Positions 1 to 38,769 of a DNA stretch of 46,581 nucleotides are shown in pieces (positions within the stretch are counted from its first letter, which is position 1; the number at the start of each line of letters is the position of its first letter). The notes under the pieces are model-generated. The model had not been told where the DNA came from. It ran no database searches and was given only the letters and a program-made list of their open reading frames with translations. The position numbers were made by a program, and so were the translations under genes. The stretch is from a virus. The DNA is taken from positions 1 through 46,581 of the IMG/VR virus record IMGVR_UViG_3300044766_000022; one strand, given 5' to 3'.

Positions 1-127
1 AAATAGCTAATTGTTCGGATGTTAATTCCTGCAAATATCCTTCGTCTTGAGGTACAAATATATAATATCCAGAAGCTATTCCTGTACGATCAGGAAGTTC
101 GTTGATAATTGTTGTAATTTCTAATTC
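1..127. repeat. 127-bp exact terminal direct repeat (left copy)
   Basis: Bases 1-127 are identical to 46455-46581. A repeat of exactly 127 bp matches a common assembler k-mer length, so I read it as a circularisation overlap, not a biological terminal repeat. Joining the copies gives a circle of 46,454 bp and restores the gene spanning the ends. Confidence 0.95.
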
Positions 128-790
128 CGTGAGTTTATTATCACCAATGAATAATTGCTGGAAAGAATCATATCCTGTAATATCAATAGATGTTAGAAAA
201 TGAGATGATTGAGCAGTAATCAATACTAACCATCTTAAATTAGTTGCTATTACTTGATATTCATATAAGTTATCACTTCCAAAATAAATTCTTGTTATAT
301 CTCCTGCAAAAGAAAAAACAATATTATAAGTTCCTGCATCATAATGATGAGGAGTACTACAATAACCAGCATCAAAGTCAACACTATCAGAAGTACCATC
401 TCCCCAATTAACAAAACCCTTTCCCGTAAATTGGTCGTTATCTATCTCTAAATAAATAGTGTTATTACCTGGTCTTGTAAATAGCGTAAATCCTACTGTT
501 GGATGAATAATGTAAGTAAAACTTCTTACTGGTGGTGCTTCCTGAACAATGTAATTGCCATCTTCCGTCATTATGTAATCTCCATTCTCTGCAAGGATGG
601 CATTACTTGGGCCCGATGGTGTGCCTCCCCCCTGTGAGGTGTAGGGAGGGGTGTGGAGGGCACGCTGGACTGTACCGGGAACTACGTTACCTATGCCGTT
701 ACCCGAATAACGGACAGGACGGTGTACGGTTGATTGTGAATATGCCGTTATACACGACAACAAAAATAAAATAAGAAATAGCTTCTTCAT
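1..790 (-). CDS. Secreted PKD-like / fibre-type protein, 5' part (gene continues across the contig ends)
   Basis: The reading frame starts at ATG 790-788, stays open to base 1 and continues on the circle at 46454 down to TAA 46426-46428: 819 nt, 272 aa. It begins with a Sec signal peptide (MKKLFLILFLLSCITAYSQ). A Gly/Pro/Ser-rich linker and the motif ILAENGDYIMTEDGNYIV follow; that motif is common in phage surface proteins. The middle has a PKD-like strand (FVNWGDGTSD), and the end resembles bacterial surface-repeat proteins (LTELEITTIINELPDRTG). The start overlaps the stop of the 787-1203 gene by ATGA, so the two are coupled. It is the fourth of six consecutive signal-peptide genes. Role inferred: receptor-binding or surface protein. 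Confidence 0.85.
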   Translation of the reverse strand, partial: MKKLFLILFLLSCITAYSQSTVHRPVRYSGNGIGNVVPGTVQRALHTPPYTSQGGGTPSGPSNAILAENGDYIMTEDGNYIVQEAPPVRSFTYIIHPTVGFTLFTRPGNNTIYLEIDNDQFTGKGFVNWGDGTSDSVDFDAGYCSTPHHYDAGTYNIVFSFAGDITRIYFGSDNLYEYQVIATNLRWLVLITAQSSHFLTSIDITGYDSFQQLFIGDNKLTELEITTIINELPDRTGIASGYYIFVPQDEGYLQELTSEQLAI

Positions 791-1203
791 TTCGCTTTTA
801 AATTAAAAAACGACCTTGTAATATTTATCGTATCCTTGACCCCCAAATCAATATACAACCGGATAAACTTTTCGGGTAAACAAAAATCATCCCACATATA
901 AGTTCCGTTTGAAGATATTGTCACCGTGTCTGTACCCGGATAGGTATTCCAGTAAGTATTTGTGGTCAGTGTATTCGATACCGTGTCGGCAACCTGCATC
1001 CACGCTTTTACTGTATCTTGTGAGGATATACCACTTACTGTTACCGACCACGCCCAGGGAGACGATATAGACAACCCCGATTTAGATAAAACCAAATGAA
1101 TGGCAGTATCTTTTTTTAATGCCGTAACGACATTATATTGCGAAAATTGAGAATGCCCGACAAAGGATGCCAGGATTAAAATTGTTACAAATAGAGTTTT
1201 CAT
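787..1203 (-). CDS. Secreted protein of unknown function, 138 aa
   Basis: It opens with a typical Bacteroidetes Sec signal peptide (MKTLFVTILILASFVGHSQ). The mature part of about 120 residues is rich in Thr, Ser, Val and aromatic residues and looks all-beta (DTVKAWMQVADTVSN, DTVTISSNGTYMWDD). The style resembles the beta repeats of the 16108-17223 protein. Its stop overlaps the next start by ATGA. No family recognised; its place among fibre-like genes suggests a small virion-associated or exported surface protein. Confidence 0.75.
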   Translation of the reverse strand: MKTLFVTILILASFVGHSQFSQYNVVTALKKDTAIHLVLSKSGLSISSPWAWSVTVSGISSQDTVKAWMQVADTVSNTLTTNTYWNTYPGTDTVTISSNGTYMWDDFCLPEKFIRLYIDLGVKDTINITRSFFNLKAK

Positions 1204-1215
1204 TTTTTTAGATTT

Positions 1216-1998
1216 TTATTGTGCTATTGTTCGTGAAGTTTCTACCCATTGAATACCATTGGTGCAAATAAAATTAATTGTAAATATCTTTCCCGTTACG
1301 GTTCCTGTCGATAAAGTTCCTACTGATTTAAAGTTTGTTCCAAACGTAAGTACCCTTGCTGTTGTCCCTGTTGTTGTGATTACAAACGTAGTCCGGTCTC
1401 CTGTAACACCCCCTGTAGCATTAAATGTGCAAGCCCCGGTCGGTGTAATTGTAATAACAGATGCCGCCATAGTAACCGTCATTGCCCCCGTTGTGGCTGG
1501 GGCAACCGCCGCGATGTCTGCTAATTTTATCCGTATTGTTGTCCCGGTTTCATCCCCGGTGTTGGATCCGGCAATAGTCGGTTTGTTTAAAATCTGCCCT
1601 ATTCCACTACTGGCGTTCCAGTCTGAATTTACCTGAGCTGCTGGGATTTGCGGTTTGTCGGTTAACGAGTTATAACTTTTCTCTGTCAATTCGTTAAGTG
1701 CATGATTGTGCGATATTAAAGCATAAGGATGTAAGTGTTTTTCAGCAAAGTTCAACCCTACATAATACCTGGTAGCAATTTTCGATGTATCAACCTGAGC
1801 AGGAACACCAGTTACGTCGATCCTTGTATTGCCAAAATACAGCCCTCCGGACAATGGTGAATAAAGTTTATTCAAAGTAATACGAGGCGTAGAGGGTATG
1901 ATTTCGTAAGAGAGACTGCGAACACTCATAAACTCTTTTACCTGCCCAAAAGCTGGTAATGACAATAATAAACCGATGATTGAAAATTTAAGGTACAT
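1216..1998 (-). CDS. Secreted tail-fibre-like protein
   Basis: I take the ATG at 1998, which directly opens a signal peptide (MYLKFSIIGLLLSLPAFGQ), rather than the ATG six bases upstream. The centre carries the classic phage fibre/collar patterns HNHALNELTEKSYNSLTDKP and ILNKPTIAGSNTGDETGTT, seen in many adhesive tail fibres. The C-terminal 90 residues are Thr/Val/Ala-rich beta sequence resembling a trimeric fibre tip. About 260 aa. It overlaps the stop of the 1988-2875 gene. A Sec signal on a tail-fibre-type protein is odd, because phage fibres normally assemble in the cytoplasm. Confidence 0.8.
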   Translation of the reverse strand: MYLKFSIIGLLLSLPAFGQVKEFMSVRSLSYEIIPSTPRITLNKLYSPLSGGLYFGNTRIDVTGVPAQVDTSKIATRYYVGLNFAEKHLHPYALISHNHALNELTEKSYNSLTDKPQIPAAQVNSDWNASSGIGQILNKPTIAGSNTGDETGTTIRIKLADIAAVAPATTGAMTVTMAASVITITPTGACTFNATGGVTGDRTTFVITTTGTTARVLTFGTNFKSVGTLSTGTVTGKIFTINFICTNGIQWVETSRTIAQ

Positions 1999-2875
1999 GA
2001 ACAATCCCGTCTAATATTATAAACTGAAGCGTAGCGTCTAAATTGACAAGTGCTACGGTACAATACTCGTATTGGTGTAAAACAACCCCACCGGCTCCAT
2101 TGATTAAAACGGTGCCTGGCCCGGTAGCGGAAGAAAGCATCAAATCCGTTCCATCCATGTTGATGATCTTGCAGTCTCCGATCCAGTTAACATCATCCAA
2201 CGTTGCTGTTTTACCTGATCCTTTGAAGATATAAACCTGTGAAATGCCGTTAATAGTAGAATCAATCCCAATGGTTGACATATCTGCGGCGCCACCCCCA
2301 CCCCCGCCAATCACCGTACCGTTGCGGGTAGCAGGTGCCCAAATACGTCCGTCTTTCCACGTCGAACAGGTATATGTTTTGGCCTGAACGAATTTTGACC
2401 AGTCAATTACGATTTCAGCAAACACGCCCGAATTGGAAATAGGCCCGAGGATAAAGTTTTCTGTTGTAGTTTTGAAAGATGCTACCGTAATTGTCTTAGA
2501 ACACACCACCGCCCCCGGGACCAGTAAGGGGGCATAACTCATTTCTACTTTGTATCGCTTATTACCACCGTCTGCAACGCCGGCTTCGATCTTTGAAATA
2601 TAATAAAACGATCCGGTCGATAACGGGACTATGTACATTTGTTTTATGCCATAAGCAAATTCAGGATATTTATAACCCGAAACCGGGCCAATCTCCGTAG
2701 GTACAGTATCGGAGTTTATCATTACCTGATCTGCATTAGATGTTAACCGATAGATAGACCCCCGGTAAGCCCCGCCGGGCCGTTTGAATTTAATGGTATC
2801 TTTCGTTATATTTTGTCCTTGCGGAAAACATGTGATCCAGGCAAAAAGAAAGATAAATATTAACAGCTTTTTCAT
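1988..2875 (-). CDS. Secreted beta-rich protein, probable tail-fibre or surface component
   Basis: 295 aa with an N-terminal signal peptide (MKKLLIFIFLFAWITCFPQ). A six-glycine linker (about residues 190-195) separates an N-terminal beta domain from a C-terminal domain with short hydrophobic strands (VLINGAGGVVLHQYEYCTV) like those in fibre tips. It is the first gene of the signal-peptide cluster. A promoter-like sequence at 2880-2909 would place transcription initiation almost on the ATG. No catalytic motif seen; a role in host binding is inferred from context. Confidence 0.75.
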   Translation of the reverse strand: MKKLLIFIFLFAWITCFPQGQNITKDTIKFKRPGGAYRGSIYRLTSNADQVMINSDTVPTEIGPVSGYKYPEFAYGIKQMYIVPLSTGSFYYISKIEAGVADGGNKRYKVEMSYAPLLVPGAVVCSKTITVASFKTTTENFILGPISNSGVFAEIVIDWSKFVQAKTYTCSTWKDGRIWAPATRNGTVIGGGGGGAADMSTIGIDSTINGISQVYIFKGSGKTATLDDVNWIGDCKIINMDGTDLMLSSATGPGTVLINGAGGVVLHQYEYCTVALVNLDATLQFIILDGIVHVP

Positions 2876-2909: not shown

Positions 2910-3986
2910 CTATTGAGCTATTGCCGTCCACTCAAATGAGCAATTATCGGCAGGAGTTAGCGTAAATCCGGTTGTTAGCTTATTGGTTATCGGGCAATCC
3001 ACCGGGTTATTCATGGCATCCCAGGCGCGCAACGAGATAGAATATAAGTTGTCACCAAAAGGATCACCGTCAAAAGTTATTATCGAAGGAACCGTAATAA
3101 CCCCCGTACCATGCCCTGTTTTCAGCGTACCGGAGCCGCCGGTTACGGATGAACAATTACAGCCCATTTCTTTAAAGTTTAGTTTTTTGATAATAATGTC
3201 ACCTACAAACCGTACTTCTAATTTAGCAAGCGACCCCTTAAGCGGTTCCTGCCATTCGGGTTCTTTTATCTGTACTTCTTCATAGGTATAACAAACCCCG
3301 TCGATGTAAAGCCCTACGTTATCCATCAACGGTAAAAGCATCAAAGCGTCTACGGTATATTCATTAACAGCTAATAAATGAAGCAAATCAACCTTTGCCA
3401 GCATTCTTTTCTCGAACACCATCAACCCGTCCCGTTTTTCGCCTGTGTCTTCGCGCAGATATTCAGGTGCCTTCAACCCGGCATCCACCCACATCCATTG
3501 AATAAATGCAGCCATTATATTTGATAACTGAAGATCGTTCGAAAACTGTAAGCGTAAATAATTCGGATTGCCTAATTCTGTCAATGCCGAGGTATCACAA
3601 ATTCTTACTGTCTCCGAATACCAGTCTTTTGAAGAAAATGTATCTGTGATCTTAAAATAAAAATTTCCCTTTGGAAGCGCTGTAACCAATGCCGAGCCAT
3701 CAAAAATAATATAATCGTAATACGTTCCCGTAGTGATTGTAAGTTCTCCCGCCGCATCGATATAAGGTGCCATCGCATCGCTTAACAGCTCTACGTCGTT
3801 TGATTTGTAGTAAGTATGCCAAACCAGATCACCGACAACCCCGGCGCTGTGAACCCTGCGAATTAAAAAAGGTACAACAGTAGAAGGATTTGCGACAACC
3901 ATACAATCACGTTCAGCATCTTCGCGGTAGCGTTCCTGCTCGGCCTTTGTGTCGTACCAGGGCAATACTGTATTTAGGTTTTTCAT
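2910..3986 (-). CDS. Tail-tip / minor structural protein, 358 aa
   Basis: It follows the large tail protein gene with an ATGA overlap and precedes the fibre cluster. The N-terminus (VLPWYDTKAEQERYREDAE) is followed by beta-rich sequence, a Cys pair (MGCNCSSVTGGSG) and a C-terminal part with a Gly/Thr linker and Ig-like strands. No signal peptide, unlike its downstream neighbours. I recognise no family; its position after the tape measure and tail-tip gene supports a baseplate or distal tail role. Confidence 0.7.
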   Translation of the reverse strand: MKNLNTVLPWYDTKAEQERYREDAERDCMVVANPSTVVPFLIRRVHSAGVVGDLVWHTYYKSNDVELLSDAMAPYIDAAGELTITTGTYYDYIIFDGSALVTALPKGNFYFKITDTFSSKDWYSETVRICDTSALTELGNPNYLRLQFSNDLQLSNIMAAFIQWMWVDAGLKAPEYLREDTGEKRDGLMVFEKRMLAKVDLLHLLAVNEYTVDALMLLPLMDNVGLYIDGVCYTYEEVQIKEPEWQEPLKGSLAKLEVRFVGDIIIKKLNFKEMGCNCSSVTGGSGTLKTGHGTGVITVPSIITFDGDPFGDNLYSISLRAWDAMNNPVDCPITNKLTTGFTLTPADNCSFEWTAIAQ

Positions 3987-5908
3987 GGATAAAGCAATGT
4001 TATCTTAATAAAATCTGTCTCAGTGTTTAATTCTGCCGCCTCCGTAAATCCGTCTCCGAGTCCTGTTGTTACAAGTTTCATCGGGTCAAATTCTGCAAGC
4101 CTGGGAAAACTAAGTTCAACCTGTTTTCGCATCGGGACTACGGAATCAAACACTACGGTAGTTCCTGTTACCTTACCCGATGCCAGTTGCCGCCCGTAAG
4201 TATGCCAATCCCGTATTACGTTATCCCAGAACAGATCGCCGTTCTGTACGTTGAGATACGTTGCCGGTACTACAGCCCCGCGTGAGTACCCTCTTCTAAT
4301 AGCATCACGGGTGTACATGACGTCAGATACATCGGCGGCAATAACAAACAGCCCGTCATCCTGGACCGTATCTGGAGAAAGTACCAGGACATAAAAATCA
4401 CACATAAAATTACGCACATCGTAATCTGTTTTCTTACCAGGCTTTACAATTTTTGAAGTATATTCTATTATCCCCGGAGATCCGCCGCCATCGCGATAGT
4501 TAAATTCTTCCCATTGGACATAATCACCGCCGGGATAAGAATAAGAATTCGAATTAATTTGCTGGTCAATATCACGAGAATTTAATACTGCATATTTTTT
4601 AATCAGGTACGTAGTATGGTCTGTCAGGTCAACCCCTACGGGCATCGGTACTGTATAACTGTAGTCGTTTTCAAAAAACTTACGATGTTCAACAACTAAA
4701 TTAGTGCCATCTATGTACCAAAAAACATTGTACTGAACTGCTAAGAATTTAAAATATTCAGCTAAAGTCATTTCGTAAACCAAAGCATCACCGCTGTGAT
4801 CCACCGTAACGTAGTAATTTTTAACAGTCAGGATAGGTGCTAGGCATACGTTCAGGGTTCGGCTGGCGACTCCTGTTACCGGGTTTGTGGCAGCGCTAAA
4901 GTATTGAGATACCACTGTAAAGGTTTGGTTTGCCCGGTAAAGTAATAGGTTAAGCACCCCGTTTGCTGTAGGGTAATCGCCTGTTTTGATTATATTCCTT
5001 GCGAAGTCTGTCAGTTTATTTCCGGCAATCGGGGTTACGTCGTTACCATCAACAAACCAATGCGAGCTGTCGCAGTTCGTTGCACCTGTTACCTGTGTAG
5101 TTACGTTTGGAAAATCCGTATCATAAATATCGTTTCCCTGTGTATATCCAGTAACAGGTACATCGGTCTGAGTTTGCCCCCAGGAAGCATGCAAGGTAAC
5201 TATCTGCCAATAAGTAGCCCAGTTGGCTCCCGTAACAGGTGCCTTTGCGGCCGCTCCGGTATGTGCTGATATACATTTATAATAACCTCCGTCAGACCCT
5301 AAACACCAGCCCTTATTTCCCCATCCCAGCTCCTGCGCTCCCGGTGAGTAACTTTGTCCGATCACATAGGTATCCGGCGGTCCGGCGGGGCGTACGTATT
5401 CCGACACATCAGGATCTTCAACCGATGTATCAAAATAAAGACGATATAGAACCGGATGCCCGGTATAGGTTATCGGTTTGAACGGAATATCTATTAATAT
5501 ATTAACTTTCTGATCTTTATATTCATCGTACCAGGCATAAGCATCTTTTGGTTCAGGTGTGAACCGTATAACCCCTGAATCTTCATCTATGGCCAGCCCG
5601 TTGATAGGAATAATGCCTGTAAATTCGTTATAAGAAAAGGTTTCAAAATCTTCGTAACAATCTATTTTTACTTTGATTTCATCGGTGATCCCGTCAAGGT
5701 CTGTCAGTAGAACCAATAGGGCGGCATACACTACTTTGTTTTCATAGAACATCAACTTCCATTCGTCTGATTTTTTGCGGAAAAACCATTGTTCTTTTTC
5801 TTTTACCCGTTTAATCACAGATCGTTTGACAGGGTGAACCTCTGTATAGATAGACCCCCCGTCGGTAGAAAGATAAAATCGGTGCTTATATGACTGACAG
5901 ATTCTCAA
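3983..5908 (-). CDS. Large tail-tip protein with a carbohydrate-binding-like module
   Basis: 641 aa. The start is TTG at 5908, overlapping the tape-measure stop as TTGA, which supports it. The N-terminal 150 residues resemble distal-tail/tail-associated proteins. Near residues 180-240 a chitin-binding-like (CBM5/12 type) segment ends in YYKCISAHTGAAAKAPVTG and a WATYW motif, typical of carbohydrate-binding inserts in phage tail proteins. The second half is a long beta-rich region. Role inferred: tail hub or receptor-proximal protein directly below the tape measure. Confidence 0.75.
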   Translation of the reverse strand: MRICQSYKHRFYLSTDGGSIYTEVHPVKRSVIKRVKEKEQWFFRKKSDEWKLMFYENKVVYAALLVLLTDLDGITDEIKVKIDCYEDFETFSYNEFTGIIPINGLAIDEDSGVIRFTPEPKDAYAWYDEYKDQKVNILIDIPFKPITYTGHPVLYRLYFDTSVEDPDVSEYVRPAGPPDTYVIGQSYSPGAQELGWGNKGWCLGSDGGYYKCISAHTGAAAKAPVTGANWATYWQIVTLHASWGQTQTDVPVTGYTQGNDIYDTDFPNVTTQVTGATNCDSSHWFVDGNDVTPIAGNKLTDFARNIIKTGDYPTANGVLNLLLYRANQTFTVVSQYFSAATNPVTGVASRTLNVCLAPILTVKNYYVTVDHSGDALVYEMTLAEYFKFLAVQYNVFWYIDGTNLVVEHRKFFENDYSYTVPMPVGVDLTDHTTYLIKKYAVLNSRDIDQQINSNSYSYPGGDYVQWEEFNYRDGGGSPGIIEYTSKIVKPGKKTDYDVRNFMCDFYVLVLSPDTVQDDGLFVIAADVSDVMYTRDAIRRGYSRGAVVPATYLNVQNGDLFWDNVIRDWHTYGRQLASGKVTGTTVVFDSVVPMRKQVELSFPRLAEFDPMKLVTTGLGDGFTEAAELNTETDFIKITLLYP

Positions 5909-8589
5909 TTCAATATCGTTGTTTGGTTGCCCTTAACAATATAAGTTTTCCCGTCCTTTTGAAAAGAATAGGCTTCTTGTTTTGGTTTACGCATTTCCTC
6001 GTAAGTTTTGCGCTGCCATTTGCTATCTACGTTCACCACGTTGATCGGGGCAAAGGCTTTTTCAAACCGCATGGAATTTATCGAGTTGAACACTTCAGGC
6101 AACAGATCCCCGTATTTTTGAGTAGCCGGACGGTTGATAATACCGGCCCATTCGCCGGCCTCGGCCGTACCCAAAGCACCCAAAGAAACGCCCCCCTGAT
6201 TATGACGTTTGCCCTGAAGCATCTTACCTTCGATTCCCACAAACCCGCCTTTTTCAAATTTCTGTGAAGCAATGGCAACAACTTCCAAAGCACCCAAAGC
6301 GGCATTAATGATTGCCCCTGCGATATTATCTTTTGCCAGTGCAGCCGTTACTCCTAAAGCCGTATTAATGATGGCCTGGATGATTGCCATTATTTGGGCT
6401 TTCTTCTTTGATTCTTTTTCAAGTTTTAGTTCTTCCTCTGCCCTTCTTTTTTGTAAAGCATCTTTCTTTTGATTATAGACTGCTTCCGAAATCTGCTTAT
6501 GCTTGTACTGATCGTCCAGCGCTTTTTCTTCAGCATTGTATTTTTGAGTAACAGAATTCATTTCCTCCTGATCCGACTGTTTAATTATATCGGTTATCTT
6601 CCCGTAGGCCTCGCTGACAAACTGGACGTATTCGTTCAGTTTCTCCATTTTTGCCATATACCCATAATCTTTATTTCCGCTTAAATCAACGTCCGGCTGG
6701 TTCATCGGACCAGTGGGTGCGTTCGTGGGCGTAAATTCCTCCGCTGGCGCGGCTCCTTTGGTTGAAGATTGCAGGGCGTTTTTATAAATAGACTTTATCG
6801 CATCGGCTTGCTGTTGGGCCGACATTTCGGAAAACTTCACGGCATCCATTTGCTTTTTCATCTCATAAGCAAATATCTCATCCTGTGTTGCCTTACCTGC
6901 CTGGAGTTTTATTTTGTAAAGTTCATCGTCTGCCTTTTCCTGACCTTTTATCCAGTCATCATAAAGTTTTGCCTGATCTTCGGCGTTTTTATTAGCGGCG
7001 GCCCAGAACGCCGTATCCATAGCCGCTTTCTTTGCTGCTAAATCGGCGGCCTTTTGTGCTTTTGCAGCGGCTGCATCTTGTTTTTTATCGAGCAGTTCGC
7101 CTTTGGTCAGTGATTTTTCAACCGAAAGATTATATTCATGAGTTACATTGTTAACAGCAACCCAGGAGTCCTCCAGTGCCTTCAGCGATCCTGGTCCTTC
7201 TTTTGCGGCCTTACCCATTGATTCAGTAATATGAGCAAACCCCTTCGCCTGTTCGTTTGTATTATCTATGATTATTTTTAATTCATCTCTTTTTTGTTTA
7301 TTAAATTCATCCCCGGTTTCAAGTGCCCGTTTTGAGTAATATTCATAATTTTTTACAGCCGTATTATAATCTTCCGCTTGTTGGATAAGTGGAGAAAAAG
7401 CACTGTATTGTTTTACATAATTTTTAATAATACCTTCGCTTAACCCTGTTAATCGTGAAACATTTCCCAACTCTGTCTTAAATAATTTGTCAGCATTTAC
7501 CAACTTTTCATCTGCCAGTCCTTTTTCTAAAGATACAAGTTTATCAATATGTACCTGTCTTTCAGTAGTCGTAAGATTGACATTTTTTAAAGCCAATCGT
7601 TCCTTGTCAATAGCATTATTTAATTCTGATTCCCGAATTGAAACAGAACGAACACGCTTTTCAAGATCATCCAGCGTGCGGGCATATTCCTGTCCTGCTT
7701 TTATAGCTTCGTTCATCCTGTCTGTGAAGTTGGAAAAGTCCCCGGTTGCAAATGATCGTAAAAGCATATCCCATCCAAACTGCATTCCGGTTGTCATTTC
7801 CTTCCAGGCATCGGCTGTCGATTCTGTTGACGCAATAACGTCTTTACCAAACTTTATCAGCCCTGCGCTGGCAGCGACAACGGCACATATCCCGGCGGCA
7901 ATACCAATCCACGCTCCTTTTATTCCCTGTGATAGATTTGTGAATCTTTGATTTATAGTTTGGGTTTGGGTTATTTCCTGGTTATATTCATTGGTAACAG
8001 TTATGTTTTTCTTAAACGAGTTTGCGATCTGGGTTAATGCTGTATTCATTGCACCGGAATTTTTGGGATAATTCCCTACATTCCGCTGGTGATTACCAAG
8101 CGAATAATCATATTGTTTTAATTTATCATTGGTTTGTACTATTTGTTTTGAGAGTTTTTCAAATGCCGCTGTACCTACTTCTGTCTTTTTATAATCTTCC
8201 ATTAAAGCCTTCATCTTTGCCGAAAGTTCGGCATAGGTTTTACCTTGATTCTTTAAAGCATCATCATGCTGCTTTTGTAAGCGGGTTTGCTTTTCAAGTT
8301 CTGTGCTTTCCTTTTGCATTTCCTTGATCCGCTGCTGACCTATCGCTTCTAACTCCTTTTTGGCCTTTAATGTATCCTGACTGGCCTTTGTGGCTTCCTT
8401 GTATTCTTTGTTTAACCGGATAACCTCTTTTGTTTCCTCTGCGGATAACGTGTTTTTTTTGGCTAAGTTCGAGGCCAGGTCTTTGTCCAGCTTTATAAGT
8501 TCCTGGTATTTATCAATCAGGACATTGAGCTGTTCGTTAAGTTTTGAAACCTGAAGTACGTCTTCGTGGTAAATAGGATTTCCGGCCAT
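5905..8589 (-). CDS. Tail tape measure protein
   Basis: 894 aa, the longest gene. The N-terminal 200 residues are a Lys/Glu/Gln-rich coiled coil. A hydrophobic segment follows near residue 225-245 (GAWIGIAAGICAVVAASAGL), as in many tape measures. More coiled coil leads to a second hydrophobic stretch near residue 740-770 (IMAIIQAIINTALGVTAALA), and the C-terminus has the Bacteroidetes tape-measure pattern FEKGGFVGIEGKMLQGKRHN. It sets tail length and may form a channel during DNA entry. It follows the frameshifting assembly chaperone pair, the standard siphovirus order, and has a candidate promoter at 8604-8634. Confidence 0.92.
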   Translation of the reverse strand: MAGNPIYHEDVLQVSKLNEQLNVLIDKYQELIKLDKDLASNLAKKNTLSAEETKEVIRLNKEYKEATKASQDTLKAKKELEAIGQQRIKEMQKESTELEKQTRLQKQHDDALKNQGKTYAELSAKMKALMEDYKKTEVGTAAFEKLSKQIVQTNDKLKQYDYSLGNHQRNVGNYPKNSGAMNTALTQIANSFKKNITVTNEYNQEITQTQTINQRFTNLSQGIKGAWIGIAAGICAVVAASAGLIKFGKDVIASTESTADAWKEMTTGMQFGWDMLLRSFATGDFSNFTDRMNEAIKAGQEYARTLDDLEKRVRSVSIRESELNNAIDKERLALKNVNLTTTERQVHIDKLVSLEKGLADEKLVNADKLFKTELGNVSRLTGLSEGIIKNYVKQYSAFSPLIQQAEDYNTAVKNYEYYSKRALETGDEFNKQKRDELKIIIDNTNEQAKGFAHITESMGKAAKEGPGSLKALEDSWVAVNNVTHEYNLSVEKSLTKGELLDKKQDAAAAKAQKAADLAAKKAAMDTAFWAAANKNAEDQAKLYDDWIKGQEKADDELYKIKLQAGKATQDEIFAYEMKKQMDAVKFSEMSAQQQADAIKSIYKNALQSSTKGAAPAEEFTPTNAPTGPMNQPDVDLSGNKDYGYMAKMEKLNEYVQFVSEAYGKITDIIKQSDQEEMNSVTQKYNAEEKALDDQYKHKQISEAVYNQKKDALQKRRAEEELKLEKESKKKAQIMAIIQAIINTALGVTAALAKDNIAGAIINAALGALEVVAIASQKFEKGGFVGIEGKMLQGKRHNQGGVSLGALGTAEAGEWAGIINRPATQKYGDLLPEVFNSINSMRFEKAFAPINVVNVDSKWQRKTYEEMRKPKQEAYSFQKDGKTYIVKGNQTTILN

Positions 8590-8640: not shown

Positions 8641-9419
8641 TCAAACGGCATTCAGCGGGCGTGGCTTTTGCTCTTTAATGTAAGTTATCAGTGAGTAAAA
8701 TTCCTTCGTAGTCAGTTTTTTAATGGGTTGATAGGTATAAGATTGCAACACGATGCAAAGGCGTTCAAAGTCTTGCTCTATTTTTAACTCCTCTGACTGT
8801 TTGCCCGTAAACTTACGAGGTTTTATCTGTGCAATGAACCATTTATTTACTTCTTCAATGTCGGTGGATAAATCAACATCTTCGATTATCTCCGTTAACA
8901 TTGCATCGGTTAGCTTCTTTAGCTTGTAGTTGTAGAATTTTTCCTGTGTGTTATTGTCTGCATAAACCGCCGGAAACATTGCATCAATTTGCTGATAAAA
9001 GTGAATGCGGATTTCCTTGCTTTTTTTTTTAATGCCGCTTGTGTAAACCCGGCTTTGTTTAACTCAATCAAAATCTCTTTTAACCCGGTTTCCGAATAGT
9101 CCTTAAATTCCCGCCCGTTGATCGAGTGTACCAAACAAGCAAATGATAACTGATTTGGCAAGACTGCCTGACCTATAAAATCAAACAACTGGCGAAAATT
9201 ATTTAACTCCTCTGTGATCTTATCTTTATTGCCTTCCTGTGCTAAGGCATAGAGATTTTTCAAGTGTTTTTCGTCTAAGTCTTTCAGCCCGGACCCGATA
9301 GAGCTATCGATTAACTGGTATTTATTCCATAGCGAATAATTACCTACAGGCAAATTATCCGGATCGTCGTACAGCGTCACGGTGTTCCTGTCCAGGAACC
9401 CACATTTAACGGTTTGCAT
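8641..9419 (-). CDS. Tail assembly chaperone, long -1 frameshift product (G-T type fusion)
   Basis: The upstream frame (from ATG 9419) and the downstream frame (ending at 8641) overlap and are joined by a run of ten A on the coding strand at 9021-9030 (TTA AAA AAA AAA G). A -1 slip there puts the ribosome exactly into the downstream frame, which is open from the slip to its stop. The predicted fusion is about 259 aa: 133 residues of the first frame plus 126 of the second. An overlapping two-frame chaperone gene directly before the tape measure is the classic siphovirus arrangement (lambda G/GT). The chaperone would coat the tape measure during tail assembly. Confidence 0.75.
8919..9419 (-). 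CDS. Tail assembly chaperone, short product
   Basis: 166 aa in the zero frame from ATG 9419. It is mostly helical (LKDLDEKHLKNLYALAQEG, LKEILIELNKAGFTQAALKKK), as expected for the G-type component. After the A10 slippery run the zero-frame tail is Arg/Phe-rich (FISKLMQCFRRFMQT) and low in similarity to the rest. The start overlaps the end of the glycosyltransferase gene by 14 bases. Confidence 0.75.
   Translation of the reverse strand: MQTVKCGFLDRNTVTLYDDPDNLPVGNYSLWNKYQLIDSSIGSGLKDLDEKHLKNLYALAQEGNKDKITEELNNFRQLFDFIGQAVLPNQLSFACLVHSINGREFKDYSETGLKEILIELNKAGFTQAALKKKARKSAFTFISKLMQCFRRFMQTITHRKNSTTTS
9021..9030 (-). promoter_or_regulatory. A10 slippery site for -1 ribosomal frameshifting
   Basis: Ten consecutive A on the coding strand, read TTA AAA AAA AAA GCA in frame 0. 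A -1 shift gives AGC AAG GAA and enters the long downstream frame ending at 8641. Homopolymer runs can also shift by transcriptional slippage or sequencing error, but the position between the chaperone frames and before the tape measure favours programmed recoding. Confidence 0.7.
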
Positions 9420-10266
9420 ATACCAGTACGTTTTTATTGTTTGCTACTTTTGCGATCTTCAAATAGCTTTTATTTTTTGTCAGGTGATATAGGAGTGTAT
9501 AGGCTTCCGACATATCCGGATTAACGATTAATGCTTTTGACAGCGATTCAATCGAACGGTGATTTAACCCCACTCCGATGTAAGCCTTACCCAGACAAAG
9601 GTAAATATCTGCCAATTCACGCCCGCCGCCGTACATAAAAGATGCTTCGTTCAAATAAAATATAGCCATTTCGTTCGATCCCCGGTATAGGTATTCTTTG
9701 CCCAGATAGTAGGTCTCACGTGGCGAATTTGGGGACTTCTTCAGAAAGGCAGTCAATATCCTTATTCCCCTGTCCGGATCGTTCCTGCGGCCCCATCCGT
9801 CGTTCGTTGATCGGATTTCAATAGAAGAAACCGTGTCGGCTTGCGTGTTTAAACATTCGTGATAAACACCCCGCCAAAAGATAGATTGTTTACGCCTGTA
9901 AAGACGATTTTGTAAACAGTTTTCTTTTTCGGTTACAACGTTAACCGATATTACCTGGCGTTTCTCCAGGCAAATTTCCCTTATCTCTTTCGGTGAAGAT
10001 ACAAGGTATTCGTCGGCATCAATTGAAAGTACCCAATCACCGTTGCAATAAGTCAGTAACTTGTTTCGCGTTTCACCAAAATCATCATCCCAGATCGAAT
10101 GATAAACCTTTGCACGGTTGTTGAAACAAATATCAATTGTCGCATCCGTTGAGCCTGTGTCTAATACAACAATCTCGTCAAATCCTTTTAGTGATTTCAA
10201 ACAGCGATCAATACACCCCTGCTCGTTGCGGGCAATAATAGCAGCGGTTAAAAAAGGCTTTTCCAT
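9406..10266 (-). CDS. GT2-family glycosyltransferase with C-terminal TPR-like repeats
   Basis: Start taken at ATG 10266 (MEKPFLTAAIIARNE), which shares one base with the preceding stop (TAATG); 286 aa. The GT-A fold is clear: IIARNE near residue 9, LDTGSTDAT for nucleotide-sugar binding, and SIDADEYL with the metal-binding DxD near residue 80. The C-terminal third has TPR-like helices (YYLGKEYLYRGSNEMAIFYL, LGKAYIGVGLNHRSIESL). This GT2-plus-TPR layout is known from protein glycosyltransferases such as the SunS type. Because it sits inside the neck/tail cluster, glycosylation of a virion protein is a reasonable inference; host surface modification is the alternative. Confidence 0.88.
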   Translation of the reverse strand: MEKPFLTAAIIARNEQGCIDRCLKSLKGFDEIVVLDTGSTDATIDICFNNRAKVYHSIWDDDFGETRNKLLTYCNGDWVLSIDADEYLVSSPKEIREICLEKRQVISVNVVTEKENCLQNRLYRRKQSIFWRGVYHECLNTQADTVSSIEIRSTNDGWGRRNDPDRGIRILTAFLKKSPNSPRETYYLGKEYLYRGSNEMAIFYLNEASFMYGGGRELADIYLCLGKAYIGVGLNHRSIESLSKALIVNPDMSEAYTLLYHLTKNKSYLKIAKVANNKNVLVYANR

Positions 10267-11186
10267 TAAGGTATTTGGGTTATTGTTAATGTTCCTGTAT
10301 TCGTTACCCTGACCTTCCAACGGTATCCGTTTGGGCTTCTTAAAATAAAAGCTGCCGTTGAATCTATACCTTCAATCGGGGCCGTTGATTTTAATACCGT
10401 ACTGTCAAGCGTTACGGTTTGGAAATCATCTCCGAAATTGTAATTTGCGTTTAAAATGATTTTATTGCTACTATAAAGATTTATCAATCCATCATATCCA
10501 TTTGATGAAGAAACCCCGCTTTGAATAAGAACAGACCCGCCGTTGCCGTTATCAGAATTGCCGGCTGCTAAATATATCTCACCGCCTACGCCCTGATGTT
10601 TTGCATCGCCCCCAAATAATCTTACCGGCCCACCATCACTGTTATCGTATTTTAATCCGTCACCGCCGTTTAACTGTACCTCGCCGCCCGCTTGTCCGGA
10701 TTCATAACTATCTGCACCTACTAAAATAACGTGGCCTCCCCTCCCCATGCAGATTGAATCATTTTTTACCTCACCTCCCATTAACCATAAAATACCTCCA
10801 TCGTTGCCGTTACTCGCACCGGCTTTTATTTTCAACTCCGTACCCGGCCTGCCAGGTGTTACGGTATCGTATATAGTTTGATCTTTTACGGTTATATAAC
10901 GACCTGTATTATTTAATGAATCTATTGCAGTAAATACAAGGCTTCCATTGATGGTTAATGTAGTATCAACAATATTCCATAAAGCACCCCCGACCTTGCT
11001 TGCAGAATCCAGCTTGCTACCATTAAAATAAAGCCTGTGATTCAGGTTGTAAAGTTTGTCGGTTATAACCGTAGGTATTGTATGTGGTGTTACCTGGTAC
11101 CATTGCCCTATAAAACCAGTCTTAGTATCAGCCGTTTGCCCGAATATAGCAAAAGGAAACAGCAAAAGAATAAGTATCTTTTTCAT
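10266..11186 (-). CDS. Secreted fibre-like protein, 306 aa
   Basis: I choose ATG 11186, which overlaps the preceding stop as ATGA and opens a signal peptide (MKKILILLLFPFAIFGQ). The mature part has many Gly/Asn-rich short strands (GGEIYLAAGNSDNGNGGSV, GGPVRLFGGDAKHQGVGGE) typical of phage spikes or beta-solenoid fibres. The C-terminus (FILRSPNGYRWKVRVTNTG) resembles small fibre caps. It is one of two signal-peptide proteins lying outside the main fibre cluster, just before the glycosyltransferase. Confidence 0.78.
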   Translation of the reverse strand: MKKILILLLFPFAIFGQTADTKTGFIGQWYQVTPHTIPTVITDKLYNLNHRLYFNGSKLDSASKVGGALWNIVDTTLTINGSLVFTAIDSLNNTGRYITVKDQTIYDTVTPGRPGTELKIKAGASNGNDGGILWLMGGEVKNDSICMGRGGHVILVGADSYESGQAGGEVQLNGGDGLKYDNSDGGPVRLFGGDAKHQGVGGEIYLAAGNSDNGNGGSVLIQSGVSSSNGYDGLINLYSSNKIILNANYNFGDDFQTVTLDSTVLKSTAPIEGIDSTAAFILRSPNGYRWKVRVTNTGTLTITQIP

Positions 11187-16107: not shown

Positions 16108-17223
16108 TTAATAAAGTTTATTCCAGACTTTTATGGTTGCTTTTACAGTCCACGCTCCGGTACCTGAGTTCACGCCTGATACACGAACATAGCGCCCCAG
16201 GTCTCCGGTTACGGTTGTCCATAACTTTGTACCTGTATCGGTAAGCGCCCCGGTGGTCTGTAGCGTTGTCCAGTTCGTGTTATCGTTTGAGGTTTGAAGC
16301 AAGCAGGTCATCGACGCCGTACCGGAAGTTTCTGTTGCGGCCACTTGTACCGAATACCCATAAACACCGTTTAGCTGTGATGGATATGCCCAGTTCGTAG
16401 TGGCATTGCTCCCAACGGTAACAGTATTGGCAAGCACGTATAAAGGTGGACCGGACCCAAAGTCAGCACGTGGATAGAGTTTCAAAAGTACGGTAAGGTT
16501 ATCAACACCGGTGCCTGAATGAACACACTTAACCTTTACATATTGTCCCAAATTCCCGGTAAGGCTTTCGTAAATAATATTACCTGACTTTGTGGGCGCA
16601 TAGGTTTGTAGAACTTCATAGCTTGTTCCGTCATTCGAGGTTTCCAGTGTACAGGTTGATGTTCCGTTTCCAGAAACCGAATCATTGATTATCTGAATGG
16701 CATAAGCATATACGCCTGATAAAATACCGGATACATAGTTATGCGTTACGGTATTGGTTTGTACGGCTGCGTTTGCGAGTTTTATAACAGCCAAACCCGG
16801 ACCGAAGTTTCTTTTTTGCGGAAAGATCATCCATTTGACATAATGGTACATCGTATCGGTGTTGCCTGTCTGTAGCGCGTAGGCGCGTATGTAAGTTGAG
16901 GCGACACCTGTCATATAAGCCGTCGTAGTACTCTTAGCAGCCGAAGCCGTATTGCCGTGCAGCGTGGCGTAAGCATACCAGTGTGTACCGTCCAGTGATT
17001 TTTGAACGTAAACAGTGTCCTGCGTCGCTGTAGTGCCTGAGTGTTTTGTCAGTACGTCCTGCAACGTGAACACGAATACAGAATGAATCTCTTTTGGATA
17101 GAGATATGTCCCGGTATCTGCCCCGACGAGCTTATCCAGTGCGTGCGCGTAATATACGTAGTTATCCTGCGAGAACCCCGCAAAGGAGAACAAAAGGAAG
17201 ATGATTGTGATTAGCTTTTTCAT
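16108..17223 (-). CDS. Secreted protein with three tandem beta repeats
   Basis: 371 aa with a clear signal peptide (MKKLITIIFLLFSFAGFSQ). Three homologous units of about 110 residues follow, recognisable by VQKSLDGTHWYAYATLHG, LETSNDGTSYEVLQTY and LQTSNDNTNWTTLQTTG, each ending in a strand pair with a YVxV or YIRAY core. Such TSNDGT-W beta-sandwich repeats resemble phage decoration or adhesive domains. It sits between the portal and scaffold genes, where a head-decoration protein would be expected. A Sec signal would send the protein out of the cytoplasm, in conflict with capsid assembly. Confidence 0.78.
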   Translation of the reverse strand: MKKLITIIFLLFSFAGFSQDNYVYYAHALDKLVGADTGTYLYPKEIHSVFVFTLQDVLTKHSGTTATQDTVYVQKSLDGTHWYAYATLHGNTASAAKSTTTAYMTGVASTYIRAYALQTGNTDTMYHYVKWMIFPQKRNFGPGLAVIKLANAAVQTNTVTHNYVSGILSGVYAYAIQIINDSVSGNGTSTCTLETSNDGTSYEVLQTYAPTKSGNIIYESLTGNLGQYVKVKCVHSGTGVDNLTVLLKLYPRADFGSGPPLYVLANTVTVGSNATTNWAYPSQLNGVYGYSVQVAATETSGTASMTCLLQTSNDNTNWTTLQTTGALTDTGTKLWTTVTGDLGRYVRVSGVNSGTGAWTVKATIKVWNKLY

Positions 17224-17570
17224 TTCTTTTTGGGCCTCCCGCCCTTGTTTTCCGGCTTTACCGGGGTTTCAGCTTCCGGCTGTACGGGTTCTGGTTGCAA
17301 TGTTTCAGCTTCCGGCTGCTTCTTTCCTTTTTCATAGGTAGGATCGTGCAGGATTACGGCTTCGGCATATCCTAATACGGACTGCATGTTGTCCTTTTTG
17401 AAGTTGCGGTAATCGGCAGGCGATATGATAGAAACATGCTCTGTTTCAACCGAACGCTTTTCGTTCGGAATCCAGGTACGGATCAGCAGTTTTATGTGAT
17501 AATTGCCCTGCGAGTTTTCGGGGATCTCATAACCCGGCGCCCTGTTAGCTGGTACTTTGTTCTGTAGCAT
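17220..17570 (-). CDS. Small portal-adjacent protein with a charged C-terminal tail
   Basis: 116 aa. Residues 1-75 form a compact beta domain (NYHIKLLIRTWIPNEKRSVE). The tail is a Glu/Pro repeat (QPEAETLQPEPVQPEAETP) ending in GGRPKKK. It overlaps the portal gene end by 26 bases and the next gene by ATGA. Function unknown; a head-completion or regulatory role is possible from its position. Confidence 0.65.
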   Translation of the reverse strand: MLQNKVPANRAPGYEIPENSQGNYHIKLLIRTWIPNEKRSVETEHVSIISPADYRNFKKDNMQSVLGYAEAVILHDPTYEKGKKQPEAETLQPEPVQPEAETPVKPENKGGRPKKK

Positions 17571-19203
17571 ACTCTTGAAATTTAGATTGCATTAATAATA
17601 AAAATGAGTTGTAATTTTTATCCGTCGGAATACCACCGAATTCAAGTTCAAACATCCGGTAGTACTTTTGATAATTTATTTTTTGTAAATAGGTTTCTTT
17701 GTTGATAACTCCGGCCTGAAAATTTAACAGCGCATCGCCGTCCGACATTCCGGGCAACGGGTCAAGGTCTTTCTGCAGGGTTGCCCTCATGCGGCCTTGT
17801 GGGTCGTTACGATAGACGGTATCTAATAATTGGTTCTCTATTGTATCAAGTATCAATGAAGACGCTCCTTTTGTTTTGGCATCGCTATAGAGAGTAATAA
17901 ATTCTGATTCATCGGTCAGGTAAAAATCCGATCCAAAGTCAATGTCTCCTTTTACAAAATACCCACCGTAGCGAAGCCTTGCAAGCGTGGTATTGGTCCA
18001 GAGTTTGGCCTGTCCGAAGTTACGGGCAACGATCATCAATACTTCTTCCCTGGACTTGAACCCTGATTCTACCTGTTTTTCATTGATTGCTGTTTTATTG
18101 ATTTCACCGTCGTAACCAACGATAGCACGGAAAATATCAACCCTTAATTTAGTAGATTTTTCCTCACAGAATTTACATGCTTCAACCTGTGCGCCTTCAA
18201 CCTGAAGGGGGTTTGTCATAAGGTTTGTGTCGCCGTTCATTACCGGGGCTGGCACTTCCATATACGACCCTGGTCCCATCAACGAACTACCGGCGTGTTG
18301 ATCTTTTTTTTCTTTTTCTGATCCCGTTGGATTGCCCTCTTCCTCTTCCGCTTTGTTGAATTTGTAGCTTATATAAATAGGAAAAGGAGCATAAAGATTC
18401 AAATACCGTTCGGCAACTTTCCAAAACAGATACCAGTCCAAATCAGAAAGCACATCGGTTATCGGTGAGCGCTTGTTGAAGTAATTTTCATCGGCCAGTT
18501 TATCTGACCAAAGCATACGGGCAGGGCAATAACCTAACGTATGGGGAACTTCAGCAATCAGTTTCCCGGGTTCGCCGTTTTTCTTTTCAAACTTTCTCAA
18601 CGAGGTATCGTCGTACACGGCGATGGTTTCGGGTTCCCCTTCCCCGGCTTCGCATTTAAAGATTATATACTCGACCTCGTTTTTGTTATTGACCTCAATA
18701 TCAATAATATCATCGGGTTCAAGGATATAAAAGTAAGGCGCCGGACGTTCCGTTGTCTGCTCCGATGGCAAGTCAATAACGATCACTGAATCAATAGCAG
18801 TTTTCATTGCTGACCAGGCTTCGACCCGCCATAGGTGATCTTCTTTTAAAGATTGCCGGTACAACTCGAAGTCCTTTTCAAACTCTTCCGATGTAAATGT
18901 ATATTTCTCGAAATAGTTTTTTGCATACCATACCCGCCCCAAGGCGGTCGATACGTCCTTCATTAACTCGTTCGTAGATACAGGAAATGTTAACAGCGTT
19001 TCAAATCTTTTAACCTTATCGGCCGGTAGTAAATTCTTGACCCATTGCAGGAAAACGTTATAATACCCGCTGGCATCCGTATTTCGCAATACGATGTCAG
19101 CATGAAATTTAAGCCTTGCGCAATGATTGCTACTTATCTGAAGTAGTGTCTTTGCCCCCGGGCTTTTGTGTTTTTCCTTTATTTGAGACTCCGATAAGTT
19201 CAC
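17545..19203 (-). CDS. Portal protein
   Basis: 552 aa from a GTG start at 19203, overlapping the preceding gene by 74 bases; a shorter start is possible. The size, the order (large terminase, a small structural gene, portal, scaffold, capsid) and the Glu/Lys-rich helical C-terminus fit a portal. Portal-like stretches include SALGRVWYAKNYFEKYTFTS near the N-terminus and KSTKLRVDIFRAIVGYDGE followed by KSREEVLMIVARNFGQAKLW, the long stem helices seen in Bacteroidetes phage portals. Confidence 0.82.
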   Translation of the reverse strand: MNLSESQIKEKHKSPGAKTLLQISSNHCARLKFHADIVLRNTDASGYYNVFLQWVKNLLPADKVKRFETLLTFPVSTNELMKDVSTALGRVWYAKNYFEKYTFTSEEFEKDFELYRQSLKEDHLWRVEAWSAMKTAIDSVIVIDLPSEQTTERPAPYFYILEPDDIIDIEVNNKNEVEYIIFKCEAGEGEPETIAVYDDTSLRKFEKKNGEPGKLIAEVPHTLGYCPARMLWSDKLADENYFNKRSPITDVLSDLDWYLFWKVAERYLNLYAPFPIYISYKFNKAEEEEGNPTGSEKEKKDQHAGSSLMGPGSYMEVPAPVMNGDTNLMTNPLQVEGAQVEACKFCEEKSTKLRVDIFRAIVGYDGEINKTAINEKQVESGFKSREEVLMIVARNFGQAKLWTNTTLARLRYGGYFVKGDIDFGSDFYLTDESEFITLYSDAKTKGASSLILDTIENQLLDTVYRNDPQGRMRATLQKDLDPLPGMSDGDALLNFQAGVINKETYLQKINYQKYYRMFELEFGGIPTDKNYNSFLLLMQSKFQEYATEQSTS

Positions 19204-19366
19204 CTTCGCCTTTTACTTTACCTGGTTTATATTCGTATGGTTCGCCTTTTTTTATTACCCAAACATCTTTTATCTGCGGGTTGCGTTCCTGAAATTGGAA
19301 TATACGTTGCGCATGGATAAGATCGTATTCGCGATCCTCGCCGTTGTTCTGTAATACTATACCCAT
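19130..19366 (-). CDS. Small basic protein, 78 aa
   Basis: Overlaps both neighbours (10 bases with the upstream gene, 74 with the portal). The first 50 residues look folded (YDLIHAQRIFQFQERNPQIK, VWVIKKGEPYEYKPGKV); the C-terminus is a Lys/Gly/Thr tail (KTQKPGGKDTTSDK). No family recognised. Long overlap with the portal is unusual, so either this C-terminus or the portal start may be shorter. Confidence 0.6.
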   Translation of the reverse strand: MGIVLQNNGEDREYDLIHAQRIFQFQERNPQIKDVWVIKKGEPYEYKPGKVKGEGELIGVSNKGKTQKPGGKDTTSDK

Positions 19367-19971
19367 TCCAGAGGATTGAAGTTTGCCAGCGGATTAACGA
19401 TTGTCAGATAATCTGACCAGTTTTCCTTCAGTGAAAACGAAAGCGTGTTTTCATCTAAGGCGTTAAAACCTCCGATTTTCTTATCGGTAACGAGCAGGGA
19501 TTGAACTTTAAACCCTGTGAATATCGTTCCCAACGGGGCTGTCGTACCTACGATGTAGCCGTCTTCCTGGACAAAATAACACATCAGGTTATCACCTTCG
19601 CACATCAACGCTTTCAGTGCCCGGATAATGGAAGCAGGGAATGAGCGTAATGTGATTGTGAACTTTGTGGGTTCTGTTCCTACAACCCTGGGAACGCCGT
19701 TAGGGACTTCGTTACCTGACCCGATGGCGATTTCCTTGCCGGGTTCCGATACCGGGTTGTCGATTACCGGAGTAACGACATGATGTGTTGCATCGGCGGC
19801 TGCGAAATAGGAAGTCCACGTTGCAGCGACAATAACGGCGGCGACATTGGCAAACGTGTTGCCACGCCGTGCGAATACGATTCTCTGGATCTGTCCTACG
19901 TTCTCAGGACATGATAAGGCTCCGATGTCTCCGATTGCGGTTTGAACGGGGCAGGTGCAGGTTATACTCAT
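19357..19971 (-). CDS. Abundant structural protein, possible major tail tube
   Basis: 204 aa preceded by the best-matching late promoter in the window (19997-20026). N-terminal Cys motif (MSITCTCPVQTAIGD), then a beta-rich fold (TKFTITLRSFPASIIRALKA, GFNALDENTLSFSLKENW). The closing strand-turn pattern resembles tail tube or decoration proteins of Bacteroidetes phages. Its place between the large terminase and portal is unusual for a tail protein, so a head protein is equally possible. Confidence 0.6.
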   Translation of the reverse strand: MSITCTCPVQTAIGDIGALSCPENVGQIQRIVFARRGNTFANVAAVIVAATWTSYFAAADATHHVVTPVIDNPVSEPGKEIAIGSGNEVPNGVPRVVGTEPTKFTITLRSFPASIIRALKALMCEGDNLMCYFVQEDGYIVGTTAPLGTIFTGFKVQSLLVTDKKIGGFNALDENTLSFSLKENWSDYLTIVNPLANFNPLEWV

Positions 19972-20067: not shown

Positions 20068-21261
20068 TTAATTTACCTGTCTTATTCCTGTTTTGCGCCC
20101 GAACGTCATAACTCCGTATCGAATGGCCGCTATCCCGTCCGGTTCGTGTCCGTCGGGTTCAGGTATTATTTTGCCGTTACGATCTACTTTCCAAAAGAAA
20201 GACTCTATTCCTTGTTTTATATTTACTGAATTACGGGTCAAATAAAGCGTGTAACCGCGCAAAATTCTTAATCCTTCAATCACATCGCCGGGGTGCTTTA
20301 CGACACCGTGAATGTTATACCCGTGCTTTGAAAGGTCAACAATCGATGACCTGGCAGCGGAATCACCAATTATCATCTGTCCTTTTGGAAAACCAATCTC
20401 TTTCATTTTATCAACTATCGACATGCGTTCTGCCCCTTTGATTTTTTCCGGCATCAGGTTATTCATGCAGAAGCGCTCATTTGCATAAAGTTTATTGTCT
20501 TTCAGGTAAAGATCTATTAAAATAGTGGGATCCGGACTAACCCCAAAATCCATTACAGAGCATTGCTTCACAGCATCGCCAGGGATTGCATCGCAGAACT
20601 GGTAATTTAAGATTCGCCTTTCGGAATAATAACCAGTCAATCCCAAGCCATAGACCCGATACCAGCTTTCATTATCCTTGCGGCTTTCAATATAATCTAT
20701 TTCCGATTGAGGACACATTTCGTTATCCCGAAAAGTAACAATAATCTGACTTGAAATAGACTCGCCTTTTTCATTCTTTAACTTTGGAACTTCGGTATGT
20801 CCCCAAAACTCTTCATCGGGGTTGAAGTCAATGTAAACCTCCTCATGCGTACGCCCGATATAGGTTGAAGCAACCTCCCACCCTATTTTATTACCCTCGT
20901 TCAAATAAAGAATATCCCTTCGCTTGGACTTCCCGGCCTGTCGTTTTACATCGGAAATATAACGGAATTGAATTACAGAACCTTTAATATGAAGGTCAGA
21001 TTCATTTTTATTAAACGCCCGATCCCAATTTAAAACCCCATCGGAGTTCTCGAACAGGAATTGAAAGTCTTTAATTGAACCGTCGCGAAGATTGTCATAG
21101 GTATCAGAGCAGATTGTAATTAAACATTTCTTTTCAATAGCTTTCTGAATAAGTATTTGAGCAATGGCTACATTTTTACCAGCACCCTGTCCTCCCTGGA
21201 CGATCCTGACTTTAGATTTAAGTTGTTGAATTTTGTAATAAGATGAGGTAAAATGCCACAT
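20068..21261 (-). CDS. terL: Terminase large subunit
   Basis: 397 aa. ATPase domain: Walker A GGQGAGKN at residues 23-30 and Walker B ILYLNEGN at 117-124, the hydrophobic-N/E form common in phage terminases. Nuclease domain: Asp238 in VMDFGVSPDPT, Asp300 in MIIGDSAARSS and Asp375 in HEPDGIAAIRYG, the three metal ligands of the RNase H-like fold. It cuts concatemeric DNA and pumps it into the prohead through the portal. It follows the 50-aa gene at 21264-21416 by two bases. Length is typical of the shorter PBSX/Terminase_3 type enzymes. Confidence 0.96.
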   Translation of the reverse strand: MWHFTSSYYKIQQLKSKVRIVQGGQGAGKNVAIAQILIQKAIEKKCLITICSDTYDNLRDGSIKDFQFLFENSDGVLNWDRAFNKNESDLHIKGSVIQFRYISDVKRQAGKSKRRDILYLNEGNKIGWEVASTYIGRTHEEVYIDFNPDEEFWGHTEVPKLKNEKGESISSQIIVTFRDNEMCPQSEIDYIESRKDNESWYRVYGLGLTGYYSERRILNYQFCDAIPGDAVKQCSVMDFGVSPDPTILIDLYLKDNKLYANERFCMNNLMPEKIKGAERMSIVDKMKEIGFPKGQMIIGDSAARSSIVDLSKHGYNIHGVVKHPGDVIEGLRILRGYTLYLTRNSVNIKQGIESFFWKVDRNGKIIPEPDGHEPDGIAAIRYGVMTFGRKTGIRQVN

Positions 21262-38694: not shown

Positions 38695-38769
38695 TTAGTT
38701 TAAAATAAACTCCATCATCCAGTAACTTTTACCGGAAGCAATGAAAATGTGCTCGTAGCGTTTTGTCAT
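38695..38769 (-). CDS. Candidate 24-aa microprotein
   Basis: ATG 38769 overlaps the lipoprotein stop by ATGA and runs to TAA 38695-38697: MTKRYEHIFIASGKSYWMME.... Length is small and no family is known; the overlap is the only support beyond an open frame. Confidence 0.35.
   Translation of the reverse strand: MTKRYEHIFIASGKSYWMMEFILN

Follow-up and report, generated by a model that had tools for sequence, protein, structure and literature searches.

The fibres of tailed phages are taught as cytoplasmic products. In phages P2559S, P2559Y, PDS1, AS73P1 and TCUEAP2 the gene that follows the distal tail protein (Dit) encodes a fibre candidate with a signal-free N-terminal domain, and the tail spikes of Flavobacterium phage immuto carry no signals. 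According to one survey, phage DGR target proteins also lack signals (PMC6199706). PblA and PblB of the Streptococcus mitis prophage SM1 are tail proteins that occur outside the cytoplasm as well, their release being brought about by holin and lysin (PMC7600539). In the open literature we found no report of Sec-tagged tail fibres, a weak form of evidence, most subscription journals lying outside it.

Here we compare with these systems a virus genome in which six consecutive genes and two outlying ones begin with Sec-type signals. If fibres carry Sec signals, either the virion is assembled partly beyond the cytoplasm, with host glycans possibly attached, or many phages use the fibre slot for exported proteins that act on the host surface. 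Either reading changes the annotation of receptor-binding genes in Bacteroidota phages.

The signal-bearing genes and their setting

The window (the whole stretch of DNA that was analysed, 46,581 nucleotides) is a virus record with a 127-bp direct terminal repeat, positions 46455-46581 repeating 1-127, and the genome is therefore circular. Judged by its structural genes it is a siphophage of the broad B40-8/P2559S family, with Bacteroides phage B40-8 and Croceibacter phage P2559S as distant kin. Homologues of the portal, head, tail, Dit and Tal genes stand in the same order as in B40-8/P2559S-like siphophages, and matches are found to phrog_7376 (2.7e-128), phrog_8193 (1.1e-52), phrog_7231 (5.5e-75) and phrog_8189 (3.7e-96). 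The window portal, compared by tblastn with 75 phage records, is 25-35% identical to that of cultured members; single-protein scans gave no close relatives. Signal-bearing genes are named in the text by their start positions.

20068-21261, minus strand: terminase
19357-19971, minus strand: major head protein
17545-19203, minus strand: portal
16108-17223, minus strand: 371-aa signal-bearing protein of the head module, tandem beta-sandwich (F5/8 type C)
10266-11186, minus strand: 306-aa signal-bearing protein of the tail module, beside a glycosyltransferase; seven D[ST]x motifs
9406-10320, minus strand: GT2 glycosyltransferase in the tail module
5905-8589, minus strand: tape measure
3983-5908, minus strand: Tal-like baseplate/tail protein, signal-free; phrog_19383; profile A1 matched to the tail protein PDB 9wwc_B
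2910-3986, minus strand: Dit-like distal tail protein, signal-free; phrog_35885 (2e-23)
1988-2875, minus strand: 295-aa protein encoded next after Dit; N-terminal Sec-like signal MKKLLIFIFLFAWITCFPQ, its cleavage site degenerate
1216-1998, minus strand: 260-aa protein; signal MYLKFSIIGLLLSLPAFG, cut before Q, then the phage tail-fibre motif SLTDKPQIPAAQVNSDWNASSGIGQILNKP
787-1203, minus strand: 138-aa protein; signal MKTLFVTILILASFVGHS, cut before Q; mature part with five D[ST]x motifs of the O-glycosylation type
1-790, minus strand: 5' part of a gene for a 272-aa protein; signal MKKLFLILFLLSCITAYS, cut before Q; the gene crosses the contig join
46426-46581, minus strand: 3' end of gene 790, which ends at 46426
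45736-46410, minus strand: 224-aa protein; signal MKKIIIALSLIMITVFSYS, cut before Q, then directly a KISELP virion-type domain
44343-45731, minus strand: 462-aa protein; signal MKAIKFIIIIVLMLTTSFSYS, cut before Q, then directly a KISELP domain
41830-44300, minus strand: lysis cassette, directly downstream of the six-gene block
44037-44300, 43763-44035 and 43543-43773, minus strand: small membrane proteins of the lysis cassette, including a weak holin match
42881-43390, minus strand: GH108 endolysin of the lysis cassette
42546-42884 and 41830-42549, minus strand: membrane and spanin-like proteins of the lysis cassette

The Dit family profile A2 matches the distal tail protein PDB 9wwc_S (7.4e-135). 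The predicted structure of the window Dit was of low confidence and its fold matches uninformative, and it was the sequence profile that settled its identity. The C-terminal extension of this Dit is common to L140/L202, the nearest relatives found (Dit 37-38% identical to that of the window), in which the GT2 glycosyltransferase is also kept at the same place in the tail module (L140:4739-5590, L202:2974-3825). Elsewhere in the window, repetitive coding stretches with repeat-encoded reading frames on both strands lie at 32718-33506 and 39518-40105, the latter with a leucine-only out-of-frame ORF at 39547-39777. Two small lipoproteins at 35825-36346 (MKKLFLLILLISLISCKK) and 38766-39065 (MKKLLFLLLLVSCQK), outside the structural region, are candidates for superinfection exclusion or for an outer spanin.

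All eight signal-bearing genes lie on the minus strand. Six of them follow one another closely, at intergenic distances of -11 to +34 bp, and fill the space from the Dit homologue (2910-3986) to the lysis genes (from 44300 downwards). All eight proteins open with K/R and then a hydrophobic core; seven of them have Gln at +1 behind a small -1 residue (YSQ, HSQ, FGQ, FSQ), Gln at this position being a hallmark of Bacteroidota signals. The eighth, that of gene 2875, reads ITCFPQG; its cleavage is doubtful, and may be poor, because Pro occupies the expected -1 position (with Gln after it). By sequence, seven of the eight read as canonical for Sec and signal peptidase I and one as degenerate. The initial annotation had proposed eight genes with Sec signals, and all eight starts exist. 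Its two outlying signals (11186 and 17223, in the tail and head modules) were found, and its six consecutive Bacteroidetes-type signals hold as canonical in five cases, that of gene 2875 being the exception. A transmembrane check, which it had also suggested, was run and gave no internal transmembrane segment in any of the eight proteins.

Signals were called by a home-made rule (K/R, hydrophobic core, small residue at -1 and Gln at +1). If Gln at +1 is not demanded, spanin membrane anchors pass as well, and our claims therefore rest on Gln-bearing cases and on inspection. Of 57 antisense ORFs the rule accepted 0, and of 14,200 proteins with shuffled N-termini it accepted 15; when the labels of the 71 genes, eight of them positive, were permuted, six positives in a row arose in 4 of 200,000 trials. 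Chance is excluded as the source of the signal run. Export of the eight through T9SS is rejected, there being no sorting domain, with no Pfam match to one at E<=1 in any of them. Also rejected is an internal start giving a signal-free form, since no in-frame Met follows just after the signals, except at residue 24 of 1998.

Fibre modules were recognised in three proteins of the block only. Gene 1998 carries the phrog_9729 tail fibre match (3.3e-13) and is 58-72% identical to cyanophage tail fibres over ~37-43 aa; 46410 and 45731 carry the KISELP domain, which in 45731 is followed by GIGT-type fibre repeats. The fibre-like character claimed for the whole set is thus borne out for these three, whereas in 2875, 1203 and 790 no fibre module was identified; none of the window's block proteins gave an S74 match. 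Over its first ~58 residues the 2875 product has a weak likeness to the start of the L140/L202 fibre (38% over 58 aa, E 0.021). The head-module protein 16108-17223 bears a signal, as claimed, but is a tandem beta-sandwich (F5/8-type) protein. Its predicted structure consists of tandem beta-sandwiches (pLDDT 65), and the fold matches were too weak to give it a family name.

Fibre slots and KISELP domains in other phages

When viral contigs were scanned twice with profiles for Dit and Tal, 142 distinct loci were obtained, a number of which share a contig. Where it could be read, the next large gene was signal-free, typically of the type M.W..LK.AV.AVIK.NGN.EITG; signal-free fibres stand there in about 100 related phage loci. 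Only in L072, L184 and L202 did these loci show a large signal-bearing protein with +1 Gln, plus L140, in which the signal-bearing fibre runs off the contig. The EITG-type signal-free fibre, typical of the family and not universal in it, was not seen among the window's tail genes, and by position the six signal-bearing genes occupy the tail-fibre slot.

By domain and profile matches, the signal-bearing slot proteins of the relatives are clear fibres. That of L202, 1655 aa long with a signal, has a Peptidase_S74 chaperone (6.6e-13) and matches tail-fibre and tail-spike PHROGs; that of L072 (1033 aa, with a signal) has a C-terminus common to Klebsiella and Acinetobacter phage fibres; and that of L184 is a signal-bearing KISELP-type fibre of 733 aa. 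A quick Tal-domain tree places the window, L202/L139 and L184 together and L072 near P2559S. This suggests that signal-bearing fibres were gained twice; the branches are long, and one origin may also fit the tree. Among the sequence sets searched, no cultured phage came up whose fibre matched and bore a signal.

Signal-bearing and lipoprotein-like proteins of other kinds were also seen in these genomes. A near-identical 246-aa lipoprotein-like protein lies between the fibre and lysis genes at L027:5909-6649 and L052:13304-14044. Among the tail genes of P2559S, a cultured family member, gp16 (L002:12432-12935) is a signal-bearing protein of 167 aa. In the genome of L072 (L212/L211, G003:C1:18597-19715), reading of the sequence indicates a signal-bearing subtilisin-like protease ahead of the terminase genes, with a transmembrane segment at its C-terminus.

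Contigs were also scanned with the N-terminal domain of 45731 and 46410. In other phages the KISELP domain is the protein's own signal-free start (MANVKISELP; MANVKISELPAATTTAGTDLFAIVQGGVTKQ). It is found behind a signal in two different phages, L223 (LSVNAQ followed by KKISELPVAT) and L224 (LTITAQ followed by KISELPAAT), the cut being predicted before Q. In 45731 and 46410 of the window and in L184, L223, L224 and L284 the domain starts 0-4 residues past the predicted cut, and the cleavable signal would therefore sit on a virion-type N-terminus. From its neighbouring genes, L224 appears to have a contractile-type tail, and its baseplate gene was used to find tail loci in Bacteroidota genomes. 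A signal-bearing fibre-like protein stands at the end of the tail module in 5 of the 30 loci sampled (L284, L285, L289, L304 and L306). A search of Bacteroidota genomes with a signal-plus-KISELP profile was set aside, as it mostly matched the signal part alone. On these predictions, Sec-tagged fibre-like proteins recur in several unrelated Bacteroidota viruses, beyond the window phage.

The head module of L202 encodes three signal-bearing proteins (133, 868 and 255 aa) between the portal and scaffold-like genes. The 255-aa protein, also signal-bearing, is the orthologue of 16108-17223, at the same place and 38% identical. Both signals are kept though their core residues differ, and at this level of identity their retention is the best sign in the comparison that selection keeps the signal.

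Fate of the exported proteins

We propose that the eight genes, six in the block and two outside it, code for fibre and decoration-type proteins with cleavable Sec signals. Given the Sec-type signals, and the KISELP domain after the predicted cut, it is very likely that all eight are exported to the periplasm late in infection and cut by signal peptidase I. Once the signal was removed, the mature KISELP proteins would start with their virion-type domain, or within a few residues of it. In this compartment the eight proteins would fold, oligomerise and probably be O-glycosylated at D[ST]x by a host system. The adjacent lysis cassette would break the inner and then the outer membrane, and tails assembled in the cytoplasm, with their Dit/Tal tip, would meet and bind the fibres, the particle being finished outside the cytoplasm. 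We give this whole chain, from export through periplasmic maturation to capture by tails at lysis, a probability of roughly 0.4. A wait in the periplasm before joining the particle is preferred because the proteins occupy the one fibre slot there is and have N-termini of the virion type; the position of the block in that slot, as one tight run between Dit/Tal and lysis, was also counted in its favour. A broader generalisation, to a class of Bacteroidota tailed phages with two-compartment assembly, in which capsid and tail are cytoplasmic and Sec-exported, host-glycosylated fibres or decoration proteins are joined only at lysis, is doubtful.

In Bacteroidota, proteins outside the cytoplasm are glycosylated at D[ST]-hydrophobic motifs, which are present in about half of such proteins and are nearly fully occupied (PMC12871550). 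In the window's eight signal proteins D[ST][AILMVT] occurs 22 times against 8.8 expected from composition (2.5x, z 4.6), or 1.01 per 100 aa as compared with 0.29-0.36 in signal-free proteins and in the fibres of cultured relatives. The signal proteins of L202, L072 and L184 have 47 against 28.9 expected, and 46 signal-free fibres of relatives have 0.42 per 100 aa (ratio 1.14). This analysis was conceived after the sequences had been seen; signal-bearing fibres from further loci, which had played no part in framing it, have 26 motifs against 12.5 expected (~2x, z 4.1). The motif is thus enriched 2-2.5-fold in most signal-bearing sets and not in signal-free fibres. Its distribution among the window proteins is uneven (at most one motif in each of 1998, 790 and 45731, and one protein has none), and a small sample of host exported proteins has no excess; both points were counted against capture by the virion. 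We regard O-glycosylation of the window proteins as a lead, not proof.

The proteins could instead be exported and never enter the virion, serving as adhesins, decoys, matrix-acting proteins or blockers of receptors or glycans, either in the periplasm or, once the cell has lysed, on cell surfaces and debris. They might then limit superinfection or the adsorption of progeny to debris, with signal-free parts such as the extended Dit binding the receptor; such a role is a close rival of capture by tails, and only slightly less likely. The initial annotation had offered both readings, exported decoys or adhesins and capture on virions after lysis. The Dit is 349-479 aa long in the window, L202 and L072, as against 283-297 in most relatives, and in four of the five contractile loci the signal-bearing protein comes after a short fibre-like one that has no signal. 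Receptor binding may therefore be served by the extended Dit, or by the short protein in contractile loci, without the exported proteins. After the fibre and before the lysis genes, L202 (16029-17356) encodes a GH16 lipoprotein and a cohesin-like signal protein, possibly polysaccharide-acting exported cargo; they look like non-virion proteins and were counted against capture by the virion. Bacteroidota chromosomes have clusters of exported fibre-like surface proteins of their own, and the lipoproteins at 35825 and 38766 suggest that the phage exports other proteins too. Proteins that stay off the particle are harder to reconcile with a block that replaces the canonical fibre and holds KISELP virion-type N-termini, and with the S74 fibre chaperone in L202. 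Moreover, a type-I signal alone would hold them in the periplasm until lysis, the T9SS sorting domain not being found by Pfam.

An improbable variant is a dual fate, in which exported fibres are mounted on virions and also coat nearby cells at lysis. PblA and PblB are such tail components and surface adhesins, freed by holin and lysin (PMC7600539), and the block adjoins the lysis cassette, but release of PblA and PblB depends on holin and lysin and not on a known Sec signal. That the hydrophobic N-termini do not serve export at all, being uncleaved anchors or assembly tags on cytoplasmic virion proteins, would suit the Pro of gene 2875 but is most improbable, given the small -1 residue and +1 Gln in the seven others and signals that persist in orthologues of 38% identity and stand before one and the same domain in phages that are unrelated. 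Capture by tails at lysis is, by a narrow margin, the reading we prefer; the sequences suggest either that the completion of some tail fibres takes place beyond the cytoplasm or that these fibres do not belong to the particle.

Comparison with known systems

Exported surface clusters of Chitinophaga, Tenacibaculum and Cellulophaga share with the window block the +1 Gln signals and, in part, the same short fibre motifs, but they sit among housekeeping genes and not in phage structural operons. Loci L095, L098, L101, L109, L117 and L127, around position 10000, are Bacteroidota chromosomal clusters with exported fibre-like proteins. XepA of the Bacillus prophage PBSX, a phage protein for which export has been described, appears in the list of weak fold matches to 16108-17223; the TM-scores are 0.24-0.32, and XepA comes from a Gram-positive defective prophage, with no sequence relation shown.

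Tail fibres with an S74 (endosialidase-chaperone) domain resemble the signal-bearing L202 fibre in the S74 and tail-fibre PHROG matches, and differ in that the L202 fibre has a Sec signal; the window block has no S74 match. PblA and PblB differ from the window proteins in having a Gram-positive host and in that no Sec signal is mentioned for them in PMC7600539. In gene arrangement the block resembles the fibres of B40-8/P2559S-like phages (P2559S gp25, PDS1 gp60), which occupy the same slot between Dit/Tal and lysis, within the same order of structural genes. Whereas gp25 and gp60 are single large proteins with a signal-free N-terminal domain, the window has six proteins in their place, each with a Sec-type signal.
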